From Bacteroidales bacterium (GTDB taxonomy: Bacteria; Bacteroidota; Bacteroidia; Bacteroidales; P3): a stretch of 48,653 bases of DNA. The position numbers and the translations under genes were made by a program. This document shows, piece after piece, positions 34,903-48,653 of this stretch (its first letter is position 1; each line of letters starts with the position of its first letter). The DNA lies in assembly GCA_017479385.1 (NCBI GenBank), contig JAFVCE010000023.1:1-48653 (forward strand), given 5' to 3'. The notes under the pieces are model-generated. The model saw only the letters and a program-made list of their open reading frames with translations, searched no databases and was not told the DNA's origin.

Positions 34903-35287
34903 GGGGTTTGGTTCTGCTAATTTGGTATATTATTATAACGTGATACCTTCCGTATTATTGCTTTGGTGGAATTGATGTTTATTTTATCAATACATTATAC
35001 TCGTTTCAATTTTTGGAACTTCTTTTGTTTTCATATTAGACGTAAAAATTATTGAATTGTGTGACAAAGGAGTGAAATTTCTTTAAAGATGTTTTGGATG
35101 GAGTTGGTTTTCACATTCCTTAATACTAGTGCGCCGACGTTTTTGAACACCACTTTTTTATAGCAGAAGACAATTTATTACTTTACTATGATTTTTTTGC
35201 TGAAACAAAAAAAACTTCGTACCATTTGTACAATGGTTTATACTTTAAAATAAATTATAAACCATTATATACTAAAACGTTAACGCA
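34903..35287. other. AT-rich divergent region before the nifJ-repeat array
   Basis: 385 bases without a gene. It must contain the sigma-operon promoter. Near the right end a perfect 11-bp inverted repeat AATGGTTTATA / TATAAACCATT (35232-35242, 35256-35266) lies just before nifJ-like copy 1. Confidence 0.5.
35232..35266. repeat. Inverted repeat upstream of nifJ-like copy 1
   Basis: AATGGTTTATA and TATAAACCATT separated by 13 AT-rich bases. May be an operator or an end structure of the array. Confidence 0.6.
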
Positions 35288-35476
35288 ATGGACGAAGTAA
35301 AAAAGTATATAACACGCGACGGTTGGTATACCTGCGAACACCATAGGATTAATTCCAGTGACGTGAGCAACTGCGCTGTGGCTCATGTGTCCTATAAGCT
35401 GTCGGCCGAGCCGATGACATATCATAGCGAGGTGTCCGCCATCTACTTCATTACCCCGAGCAGCCCAATAGCGTAG
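35272..35476 (+). pseudogene. nifJ 5'-end remnant, copy 1 (most diverged)
   Basis: Decayed copy of the first codons of pyruvate:ferredoxin oxidoreductase. Translated from 35288 it reads through NCAVAHVSYKL and AIYFITPSSPIA, matching [11 protein letters not shown] and [12 protein letters not shown] of the intact gene at 48190. A stop follows at 35474. Relative to intact nifJ it has two in-frame insertions: about 45 bp (WYTCEHHRINSSDVS) after codon 12, and 24 bp (LSAEPMTYH region) after AHVSYK. Copy 2 has both of these, so the two share an ancestor. Upstream of the ATG only a rough AAACGTTAACGCA survives of the palindromic leader. Confidence 0.8.
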
Positions 35477-35519
35477 TAAAAATCATAATTTGCCACTTTG
35501 CATTATAGAGACAAATAAT

Positions 35520-35591
35520 ATGGAGAAAGTTCAGATATTCCAAGACAAGAAGGTGTGCACACACAGTGAAGCGGAACACAAGAATTGCTGA
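35520..35591 (+). pseudogene. BRO-N family gene start, truncated
   Basis: 24-codon remnant beginning MEKVQIFQDKKV, which is how BRO-N phage-antirepressor-like proteins of Bacteroides commonly begin. It then runs into a stop. The 13 bases GACAAATAATATG at its start codon (35510-35522) recur at 46072-46084 next to nifJ-like copy 4. Confidence 0.5.
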
Positions 35592-35606
35592 TAAAAGATA
35601 ACCAAT

Positions 35607-35888
35607 ATGAACAACGCAAATACTTTAATACCATACTCCGAGGTAGAAAACAAGATTGCCGTCATCCGCAAGCAGCAGGTGATTGCCGATGCAGATGTGG
35701 CTGAACTGTATGGGGTGGAAACACGTGAAGTTAATCAGGCGGTACGTAACAACCGAGACAAGTTTCCTGACGACTATATGTTTGAACTAAATAAGAGTGA
35801 GTTACAGAGTTTGCGGTCAAAAATTTTGACCACAAAAGTGTCAGTCAAGAGCCGCTCGACCACCAAAGTATTTACCGAAAAGTGCTGA
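35607..35888 (+). pseudogene. ORF6N-domain protein, N-terminal half only
   Basis: 93-aa product with a clear ORF6N DNA-binding domain: YSEVENKIAVIRKQQVIADA, DVAELYGVETREVNQAVRNN, then KFPDDYMFELNKSEL. ORF6N proteins are phage-type DNA-binding proteins of 170-300 residues. Here the frame stops at VFTEKC, exactly where the family continues with a FTEKG/QG block, so the C-terminal half is missing. The actin-like gene starts 12 bases later. A C-terminal ORF6N-type remnant is found 6 kb downstream (41874-42140). It may be the other half of the same or a related gene. Confidence 0.7.
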
Positions 35889-35900
35889 AACAGAACAATT

Positions 35901-46093: not shown

Positions 46094-46927
46094 ATGAAGA
46101 AGGAAGACATAATAGCATTATTCGGACAATATGAGCAGGCCGCTTGCGATGTGAACGGCGTGGAATGCTGGAGCGCGCGGGTGTTGTGTTCGCTGCTAGG
46201 ATACACACAATGGCGTAACTTTGTCAATGTGATTGACAAAGCCAAAACAGCCTGTATTAATGCTGGACAATCACTGACCGATCATTTTGCTGACGTCAGC
46301 AAAACGATACCAATGCCCAAAGGGGCTGAAAAAGAGATTGACGACATTATGCTCACGCGCTATGCTTGCTATCTTGTGGCGCAGAATGGAGACCCGAGGA
46401 AGCCGCAGATTGCTTTTGCACAGACCTATTTTGCAGTGCAGACTAGACGAGCTGAGATTGTGGAACAACGGCTGTTGGAGGTGGAGCGAGTCAAGGCACG
46501 TACGAAACTGCAAGAGACGGAGAAAAAGCTGTCGGGCGTGTTGTATGAACGTGGCGTAAACGACCAGAGTTTTGCAGTTATTCGTTCTAAAGGAGACCAG
46601 GCATTATTCCGTCTTAATACAGCGATGCTGAAGCGCAAGATGGGTATTCCCGATAGCCGTCCGTTAGCGGACTTCCTGCCCACCATAAGTATCAAGGCAA
46701 AGGACTTTGCGGCAGAGATGACCAGTGTCAATGTACAAAGCAAAGATCTGCAAGGCGAGAACGCCATAACCAAGGAACACATCGACAACAACGCAGCTGT
46801 GCGGCAAATGCTCATTCAGCGTGGTATTGTTCCCGAAAATCTCCCCACAGAAGAAGATGTGAAGAAAGTTGCCCGTCGCCTCGCGACAGAAGAAAAGAAA
46901 GCATTGAGGAAAGGAACAATTAAATAA
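46094..46927 (+). CDS. dinD: DNA damage-inducible protein D
   Basis: 277-aa DinD-family protein. The N-terminal BRO-N-like domain contains [19 protein letters not shown], followed by [40 protein letters not shown] and the C-terminal [28 protein letters not shown]. DinD inhibits RecA-mediated strand exchange in Escherichia coli; homologues are frequent on mobile elements. No LexA-type site is recognised upstream. Its start region keeps the GACAAATAATATG flank that precedes the BRO-N remnant after copy 1, so it seems to have replaced or invaded a BRO-N gene. Confidence 0.9.
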
Positions 46928-46990
46928 TCATACGAATGTGTGGGCAACAAGAAACTAACGAAATAGTAGATACTGATAAACGTTTCACTT

Positions 46991-48136
46991 ATGAGAAAAC
47001 TACTACATGGAATTATCGCATTACTTTTTTGCTTAAATTCCTCCGCGCAAACAATAATTCAAATGGAAGAGTATGGTGGGGTTTACCGAATCCCCTGCAA
47101 AGTGAACGGAGCAAAAATGAAACTAATTTTTGACACGGGGGCCGAAAAGGTATGTTTGTCTTTATCTATGGCAAATTACCTGTATGACAATGATTATATA
47201 ACGGATGAGGATATTGTTGGGAGTGGTACCAGTACAGTCGCAGATGGAAGTATTGTTGACCATATCAAGATTATTATTAAGGACATAGAAATAGAAGGTA
47301 TCCACTTACGAAACGTTGAGGCTGTTGTGATAGATGGACAGAACGCACCTTTATTATTGGGGCAATCTGCAATAAAAAAACTTGGAAAGTACTCAATTTC
47401 TGACAATAAACTTATCTTTGGTTCAAATAACACCAGCAATCAGATGGTTTTGTCACAACAAGCGGTTGATTCTATTGAATTAATTGCATTTGATGCCGCA
47501 AGAAATGGGTATTATATTGTAGCTGTTGAGCAATACGGTTTATTGTACAAAAATGACTATCTGACATCTTACGGGAAGAAATGGTACGCATGGTTTTTAC
47601 AGCAATCAGGTAATTACGAAGAAGCACTTGAAATATATTTTTCTATCCAAGACGATATTGAGAAAGGGGAATCTGACGAAAAAGCAGATTTCTATTACAG
47701 CATTGCTAATTGCTACTATGATTTGAAAATATATGACAAGGCTATACCCTATTATGAAAAAACTAGATATTACACATCTTCCAAATGGGAAGGTATTGGT
47801 TTCTCATCAGTAATTAGCATATATCAATCGTACACCGAAATGGGGAATTACAATATGGCTCAAAAAGTAGTAGATGATAATATTTACAATTATTTGAAAG
47901 AAAAAAGATTTAAGAGAACCGATTGCTGGGAATTAAATAAGAAGGACGAAATAGTAGGTTTGCTGTATAATATGAGAGCTTTTGCGTATAGTGAATATTA
48001 TGCAGAAAATCATCATCTTGAAATAGAATATTACCTAATTCTTTCCGCTGCATGGGGCTATGACAAGTCAATATCCTTTTGCAACAAAGTAAATCTAGAT
48101 TATTGGAGTAGCTCAAACATTATCAAATACAAATAA
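46991..48136 (+). CDS. Secreted retropepsin-like aspartic protease with TPR-like repeats
   Basis: 381-aa exported protein. Signal peptide residues 1-19 (cleavage SSA-QT). A clan-AA aspartic protease-like domain covers about 25-150, with the catalytic-type FDTGAEKVCLS (D48) and the matching LLLGQSAIKKLGKY end block; the domain is single, so it would act as a dimer. Residues 190-380 look like TPR/Sel1-type helical repeats (NYEEALEIYFSIQDDIE, KIYDKAIPYYEKTRYY). The substrate is unknown. It follows dinD after 63 bases. ATG 46991 is chosen for its signal peptide. It ends 27 bases before nifJ copy 5. Confidence 0.78.
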   Translation: MRKLLHGIIALLFCLNSSAQTIIQMEEYGGVYRIPCKVNGAKMKLIFDTGAEKVCLSLSMANYLYDNDYITDEDIVGSGTSTVADGSIVDHIKIIIKDIEIEGIHLRNVEAVVIDGQNAPLLLGQSAIKKLGKYSISDNKLIFGSNNTSNQMVLSQQAVDSIELIAFDAARNGYYIVAVEQYGLLYKNDYLTSYGKKWYAWFLQQSGNYEEALEIYFSIQDDIEKGESDEKADFYYSIANCYYDLKIYDKAIPYYEKTRYYTSSKWEGIGFSSVISIYQSYTEMGNYNMAQKVVDDNIYNYLKEKRFKRTDCWELNKKDEIVGLLYNMRAFAYSEYYAENHHLEIEYYLILSAAWGYDKSISFCNKVNLDYWSSSNIIKYK

Positions 48137-48163
48137 TGCATATACAATATAATAAATTCAATA

Positions 48164-48184
48164 ATTAATCCTTAAACGTTTAAG
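48164..48184 (+). repeat. Repeat boundary and palindrome before intact nifJ (copy 5)
   Basis: ATTAATC then CTTAAACGTTTAAG (48171-48184), five bases before the nifJ ATG; identical to copies 2, 3 and 4 at the same spacing. No TAnnTTTG box is found in the short gap before it. Confidence 0.9.
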
Positions 48185-48189
48185 CAATT

Positions 48190-48653
48190 ATGGCAAAAGA
48201 AAAAAAATTTATGACATGCGACGGTAACTGCGCTGCGGCCCATGTGGCCTATATGTTCAGCGAGGTGGCCGCCATCTACCCCATCACCCCGAGCAGCCCG
48301 ATGGCCGAGTATATCGACGAGTGGGCAGCCGCAGGGCGCAAGAACCTTTTCGGCGAGACAGTGAAGGTCGTCGAGATGCAGAGCGAAGCCGGTGCCGCCG
48401 GTGCCGTACACGGCTCGCTGCAAGCTGGTGCGCTGACCACCACCTACACCGCCTCGCAGGGTCTGCTACTGATGATTCCGAACATGTACAAAATCGCCGG
48501 CGAACTGCTGCCGGGTGTGTTCCACGTGTCGGCCCGTGCCTTGGCTGCACAGGCCCTCTCCATCTTCGGCGACCATGCCGACGTGATGAGTGCCCGCCAG
48601 ACGGGCTTCGCCCTGCTGGCCGAGAGTTCGGTGCAGGAGGTGATGGACCTCGC
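48190..48653 (+). CDS. nifJ: Pyruvate:ferredoxin (flavodoxin) oxidoreductase, N-terminal part
   Basis: Partial: 154 codons to the window end of a protein usually near 1180 residues. It oxidatively decarboxylates pyruvate to acetyl-CoA and CO2, passing electrons to ferredoxin, a central step of anaerobic energy metabolism. Domain I is unmistakable: [75 protein letters not shown] and the start of the [18 protein letters not shown] block. The frame is intact and lacks the insertions of copies 1, 2 and 4. GC-rich again like the backbone. Normal promoter elements are missing upstream, where a cassette gene ends 53 bases before its ATG. Confidence 0.96.

Follow-up and report, generated by a model that had tools for sequence, protein, structure and literature searches.

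Integrons carry tandem, co-oriented cassettes that are probably expressed from one promoter and are shuffled between species. In this study, we describe an array of related architecture at the start of the metabolic gene nifJ in a Bacteroidales bacterium of the GTDB genus P3. The stretch analyzed, contig JAFVCE010000023.1 of assembly GCA_017479385.1 (contig C11 in our set), is 48,653 nt long and is called the window throughout; repeated, mostly truncated nifJ starts alternate there with cassettes of unrelated genes. The nifJ array shares with integrons its tandem, co-oriented cassettes, probably under one promoter and shuffled between species, and differs from them in that no integrase was seen, the repeats are derived from a gene and stand at the cassette starts, and several cassettes are multigenic. 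The term integron-like, used in the initial annotation, fits the architecture of the array but not its membership.

Three other kinds of loci come close. Cis-mobilizable elements (CIMEs), as described in PMC7563491, are cargo modules without recombination genes, lying in tandem and in variable order at one conserved gene between direct repeats, with classical lengths of 1.2-13 kb. The nifJ array likewise has small modules in variable order between direct repeats, and in the genomes searched these modules are without a recombination gene of their own. However, the CIMEs of that account lie in tandem with integrative and conjugative elements or integrative and mobilizable elements at the 3' ends of their targets (PMC7563491), whereas the nifJ array sits at a 5' end, carries co-oriented cargo and has no integrase adjoining it in the 20 genomes searched. 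Recombinase-associated acquired interbacterial defense (rAID) arrays, as presented in PMC12247911, are also found in Bacteroidales; they are made of low-GC genes in one orientation, have conserved motifs between these genes and play a defensive role, with at least two co-oriented genes under 41% GC as a criterion. Taken per stretch rather than per gene, the cassettes of the window have 33-44% GC, and positions 1-35000 have 55.5%. What defines rAID in the same text is its own tyrosine recombinase together with short orphan immunity genes, whereas the nifJ array has no linked recombinase, its repeat is the nifJ start and its recognized cargo is mostly of the phage-defense type. No dedicated upstream tyrosine recombinase was found on C11, and the only PF00589 match on a unit-bearing contig of 20 other genomes lies about 51 kb away (genome G004). 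Lastly, the defense-island hot spots of E. coli, as described in PMC10121019, occupy fixed places in the chromosome and hold variable systems, PsyrTA and restriction-modification among them. The variable defense content at a fixed site is common to both; the E. coli islands are borne on mobile elements, whereas at nifJ bare cassettes lie between gene-start repeats. No description of a nifJ hot spot of this kind was found in the open-licence full-text literature, among the matches listed.

We consider the nifJ start to be a genus-wide hot spot where recombination between its repeated copies adds, removes and shuffles modules largely of the defense type, a reading whose chances we put at about even. 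The genomes searched hold nifJ-start repeats with a common left edge, modules that recur beside other neighbors, co-oriented cargo and no array-linked recombinase. In the window, the repeats are as follows:
35264..35478, + strand: copy 1, a diverged leader of the L058 type and about 40 nifJ codons, with two small inserts
40189..41220, + strand: copy 2, the leader and a degenerate nifJ to about nt 1184, in pieces 1-35, 95-322 and 607-1184
44548..44608, + strand: copy 3, the 61-nt unit, made of a 26-nt leader and 35 nt of nifJ
45899..46043, + strand: copy 4, the leader and about 40 nifJ codons, with one insert
48164..48653, + strand: copy 5, the leader and the start of an open nifJ frame that runs off the contig end (TIGR02176, 3.7e-89 over 154 aa)

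The initial annotation had reported five copies of the nifJ start in one direction, four of them beginning at the same base, and we recovered all five, with copies 2 to 5 each starting 26 nt before the ATG, which is preceded in all four by ATTAATCCTTAAACGTTTAAGCAATT. Three of its statements need amending. The last copy was called intact, but the contig ends 490 nt into it, and its intactness is therefore at most presumed. The array was described as one of nifJ 5' ends, and copy 2 extends beyond the 5' end, to about nt 1184. Copy 1 does contain a nifJ start, but its leader is of another type, with 76% identity over 61 nt to the unit at 44548-44608; among the nifJ leaders of the set the one of G089 (locus L058), not the one of its own genome, is closest to it, and the type resembles the nifJ leader of six other genomes. 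Copies 4 and 5 are 98% identical to the unit over 61 nt, and copy 2 is 100% identical over 35 nt. When up to 3 mismatches are allowed, the 20-mer core of the unit has no further occurrence in the genome of 2.28 Mb beyond reverse-strand readings of the known sites, and the repeats of the window are thus not a product of chance. The unit was also considered as a general leader, since it has weak similarity to native recA leaders in three genomes; this was rejected as the principal explanation because within its own genome the core occurs only in the array.

The first 28 nt of the unit are near-palindromic (79% self-complementary, readable as 11-6-11). Many upstream copies contain a small hairpin insert, GAAAGnnCC AGT GGnnCTTTC GATAGCGAAGCGGAGAA (window:40224-40298; L031:7094-7140; the L036 repeats), whose stem, judged by eye, seems to vary with matching changes and whose tail, at up to 3 mismatches, occurs at two sites of the own genome, neither inside the window. 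Another insert, about 45 nt long and conserved at both ends (GCTCAT...CTTCGGCA), interrupts the palindrome in the middle at L033:11989, L052:15172 and L168 (reverse strand, 10815), that is, in three genomes and ahead of two cassette types.

The initial annotation had proposed a search of relatives for the 61-bp unit and for differing cassettes. A 76-nt probe matched 68 of 120 genomes of the genus, the own genome included, and the cargo is variable. Among named genomes, the exact 20-mer core occurs in 51 stretches, all titled Bacteroidales or Bacteroidetes and uncultured or metagenome-assembled, with a ruminant host named in 15 of the titles. In other genera of the family the leader is not conserved, since nearly all of the matches listed there start close to the ATG. 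We examined loci of 66 genomes, counting the window, and 23 of these carry at least two same-direction units on one stretch, a count that includes G095 (only by way of a nifJ 16 kb away) and G061 (another leader type). Leaving out intervals below 200 bp, there are 38 of at least 200 bp (median 1730 bp; the longest, 15,988 bp, is that of the displaced nifJ of G095), and 72 of the 80 open reading frames (ORFs) of at least 120 aa within them have the orientation of nifJ. In species with the L058-type leader, nifJ stands apart from the unit array, by about 16-22 kb in G067, G102 and G095, and the displaced nifJ is preceded by an inverted unit fragment, as after a large inversion (L145:15090-15310, L146:16522-16811, L147:101-360, L148:19190-19486).

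The edges of the unit are unequal. Units were collected by matches starting at base 3 of the unit or earlier, which left out 9 of 115, 7 of them being nifJ with another leader. The 92 distinct units fall into 40 clusters by upstream sequence, four with other leader types, and the remaining 36 contexts, unrelated to one another, abut the palindromic unit exactly at its first base, which lies 26 nt ahead of the ATG. One of them is a native promoter-type region (28 units) and 35 are others. A weak motif, AATTCA, lies within 20 nt before the unit in some member of 15 of the 35 non-native clusters and in none of the 28 native units (background 0.5% per 20 nt); with one member drawn per cluster the count is about 13 of 35. 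On the right, the nifJ similarity ends anywhere from 24 nt to about 1.18 kb, and at 57-65 nt in several unrelated cassettes. As the initial annotation had noted for the window, cassettes tend to end tens of bases before the next copy, the last long ORF stopping 3-40 nt ahead of it in 18 of 33 intervals.

The native promoter-like region stands directly before nifJ in L043, L048, L049 and L064 and upstream of the leftmost repeat in nine arrays, and the BRO cassettes finish with a further copy of it. That it acts as a promoter is presumed from a TATATTTG-type box, which we take to be characteristic of these bacteria. The modules are probably co-expressed with nifJ, because they lie downstream of this region in the same orientation. 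A terminator scan of the window was uninformative (13 against 10.9 expected), and sigma-70-like sites (55 against 33.9 expected) were not used, their consensus being, as we take it, unfit for these bacteria.

It was anticipated that a fixed order of cassettes in all relatives would speak against a hot spot; such an order was looked for and not found. Instead, the same cassettes occur across species with other neighbors and in other order, which agrees with the stacking of variable cassettes at the nifJ start that had been proposed. The neighbors of the Fic cassette are the WG and DinD genes in the window and, in G031, an RmuC-like gene and an AAA ATPase; G019 has a remnant of it. The order is WG then Fic in the window and Fic then WG in G031. 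Between window and G031 the Fic protein is 98% and its DNA 94.8% identical, while nifJ is 88.9% identical over its first 450 nt. Contig C15 of G026 reads WG-repeat-nifJ, with 94.7% and 95.7% identity to the window, ungapped, and the window has 3616 additional bases between two unit copies. G026 has a second contig, C20, whose cassette differs from that of C15 (WG or GmrSD). An ungapped alignment of the two starts 5 nt upstream of the unit and spans 3774 nt; with positions counted from the unit, its 53 mismatches are confined to nt 1-1139, and the remaining 2630 nt are identical. In this draft assembly the pair suggests a recent exchange inside nifJ, near the point where copy 2 of the window ends (nt 1184).

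The genes between the repeats of the window are:
35607..35888, + strand: ORF6N-family fragment, clustering with ORF6N proteins, without NCBIfam match
35901..37952, + strand: actin-like (MreB-related) ATPase (Pfam MreB_Mbl 4.9e-37)
37956..38840, + strand: radical SAM enzyme 1 (Pfam Radical_SAM 4.4e-16; weak partial PADLOC match to pVip, 4.8e-9)
38791..40110, + strand: radical SAM enzyme 2, HemN/HemW-like (Pfam 2.7e-13; top NCBIfam matches all under cut-offs)
41362..41718, + strand: small ORF, lipoprotein-like by eye, without Pfam or NCBIfam match
41740..42186, + strand: fragment clustering with ORF6N proteins, without Pfam or NCBIfam match
42161..43462, + strand: protein without family match in Pfam, PADLOC and NCBIfam (multi-transmembrane in the initial annotation; cluster c22, shared with G031)
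43472..44521, + strand: WG-repeat protein (Pfam WG_beta_rep 4.5e-89), shared with G031 and G026
44745..45887, + strand: Fic protein of SoFic type (Pfam Fic 5.2e-19; PADLOC SoFic 2.6e-117)
46094..46927, + strand: DinD-family protein with BRO-N (NCBIfam NF008573, 348 bits, cut-off 242; PADLOC PDC-S13)
46991..48136, + strand: aspartyl protease-like and TPR protein (Pfam gag-asp_proteas 1.1e-14, TPR_1 1.4e-7)

A short DinD/BRO-N-like remnant was seen by eye before the ORF6N fragment. The co-oriented MreB-like actin and two radical SAM genes at window:35901-40110 match defense models only through the weak pVip hit. In relatives, the cargo includes ORF6N, BRO-N, RhuM, KilA-N and HNH proteins, PsyrT with PsyrA, and a type II methylase and endonuclease, as well as GmrSD, AAA ATPases, DUF4143, RmuC, a CoiA-like protein, an AbiEi-like regulator and an extra recA. 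Cargo of RecQ and DprA type might be read as housekeeping genes, a reading rejected because PADLOC places them as PsyrT and PsyrA. The second recA, full-length, lies in the array of G033 (L047:8859-9875) with the start codon of the unit as its own, and the other recA of G033 is 86% identical to it. At 1e-5, PADLOC matched 21 of 30 array proteins, several weakly, these being 8 from the window and 22 from relatives, chosen by hand from 188 ORFs with weight on the recurrent and recognizable; matches were obtained for 3 of the 8 window proteins, one weak, and for none of 10 control genes of window 1-28200. The PADLOC models labeled PDC are presumably candidates and not tested systems. Candidate defense genes are thus enriched at this locus and the cargo differs between genomes, as in a defense hot spot.

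It seems that gain, loss and reordering of modules would proceed by recombination between the nifJ-start repeats, most likely of the homologous, RecA type. Exchange between two repeats would yield a circle carrying one repeat and its cargo, which could re-enter at any repeat by a single exchange, and after re-entry nifJ would always have a working leader, with a truncated copy left upstream of it. Homologous recombination is favored, though not proven, as it accounts for the variable exchange points, the co-orientation and the fact that nifJ always keeps a leader. We entertain, tentatively, the further idea of a gene-capture platform without a dedicated recombinase, in which the nifJ start would be both the target and a portable recombination arm, host recombination would move the defense modules, and nifJ would keep its start while its promoter expresses them.

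Several observations weigh against recombination between repeats as the full account. RecA-type exchange alone leaves the fixed-base join of 36 unrelated contexts unexplained, and recombination between repeats does not explain how new cargo is first joined to a repeat. Only one of eight compared cassette pairs (Fic, with G031) is clearly more alike than the nifJ genes of the same genomes; the other seven are not. The array intermediate expected in G026 was sought there and not found, and the G026 pair may stem from the presence of two strains, from two copies of nifJ or from the assembly. A test for a local exchange zone found nifJ between species not more alike at its 5' end. Of the 57 repeats that do not belong to an intact nifJ, leader origin could be assessed for 35: with near defined as at most 30% of other genomes being nearer than the own leader, and against a simple uniform null, 21 are near their own leader, 2 are intermediate, and 12 are unlike the nifJ leader of their own genome. 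Cassette-type genes, recognized by eye from their starts, also stand directly upstream of nifJ with an unrelated leader in G003 (ORF6N, RecQ and DprA types) and G027 (AAA type), so the palindromic repeat is not strictly required, and this suggests a hot spot wider than the palindrome. Finally, the absence of a recombinase rests on draft genomes, and the weak upstream motif together with the near-palindromic first 28 nt suggests a dedicated site.

This last point leads to the main rival, a trans-acting recombinase at the palindromic 28 nt. Here the near-palindrome would be an attachment site and the cassettes non-autonomous islands, stacked site-specifically at one gene in the manner of CIMEs. 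The left edge common to 36 contexts, AATTCA ahead of the unit, the 79% self-complementarity, the exact 20-mer core in 51 stretches, the right edges at 57-65 nt in several unrelated cassettes and the inserts at the palindrome center in three genomes and two cassette types are all consistent with it; even so, we regard it as rather doubtful, since no tyrosine or serine recombinase adjoins a repeat in the genomes searched. The initial annotation had suggested looking for a recombinase gene beyond the window. None of the 20 draft genomes has a tyrosine recombinase (PF00589) beside a repeat, and C11 has none at all, the own genome having 6 elsewhere; the sole PF00589 match on a unit-bearing contig is the distant one of G004, a genome with 17 such matches. 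Serine recombinase (PF00239) genes are absent from 11 of the 20 drafts, the own genome included, and in the genomes searched none stands beside a repeat, the nearest on unit-bearing contigs being 63 kb (G033) and 196 kb (G036) away. G010 has four repeats, one PF00589 protein and no PF00239 protein. Moreover, the unit has no match in viral contigs and plasmids and one weak partial match in a phage collection, and the exchange point of window copy 1, if there was one, would lie to the right of the palindrome, because this copy keeps the other leader type throughout. The earlier proposal that each insertion rebuilds the nifJ 5' end site-specifically is not demonstrated, given the lack of an array-linked recombinase in the genomes searched, the variable right edges and the G026 pair, which points to exchange inside nifJ.

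It is unlikely that the repeats are decayed tandem nifJ duplications, left by foreign nifJ DNA that entered through homologous exchange at its nifJ end and a random join at its other end, with the left edge marking the part of the leader needed for nifJ translation. This would suit upstream copies spanning 24 nt to about 1.18 kb of nifJ, the truncated nifJ with its own leader type just upstream of nifJ in G061, and leaders that differ between clades. However, the left edge is also the same in remnants that no nifJ follows, many right edges fall near 62 nt, and the upstream motif is left unexplained. Far less probable still is an assembly artifact, in which the assembler would have built repeats and joins from mixed strains. 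All genomes are assemblies that commonly break within nifJ, and, judging by their titles, the named records are metagenome assemblies. The window contig itself ends at 48653, 490 nt into the last unit; codons 1-154 of the own nifJ are at copy 5, codons 936-1181 open contig C16 (G000:C16:2-739), and codons 155-935 were not found in the own assembly. Likewise, of 52 contigs with nifJ, 29 stop no more than 1.5 kb past the nifJ start, where 2.7 were expected, and 3 of 52 do so on the upstream, array side. The arrays lie inside contigs, but their join to a full nifJ is often unassembled. Against an artifact stands the recurrence of these contig-internal arrays in RUG, RGIG, UBA and other assembly sets, with the same edges and common cassettes.

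The hosts are uncultured gut bacteria, many from ruminants, and many of the array genes are likely involved in phage defense. With recombination between nifJ starts as the favored process, this would be a defense hot spot of gut Bacteroidales in which bare cassettes of single to few genes gather at a metabolic gene's 5' end without a visible recombinase, and it bears on how bacterial defense islands are built without an integrase. The 61-nt unit offers a searchable address for new defense genes and for cassette turnover in rumen metagenomes.

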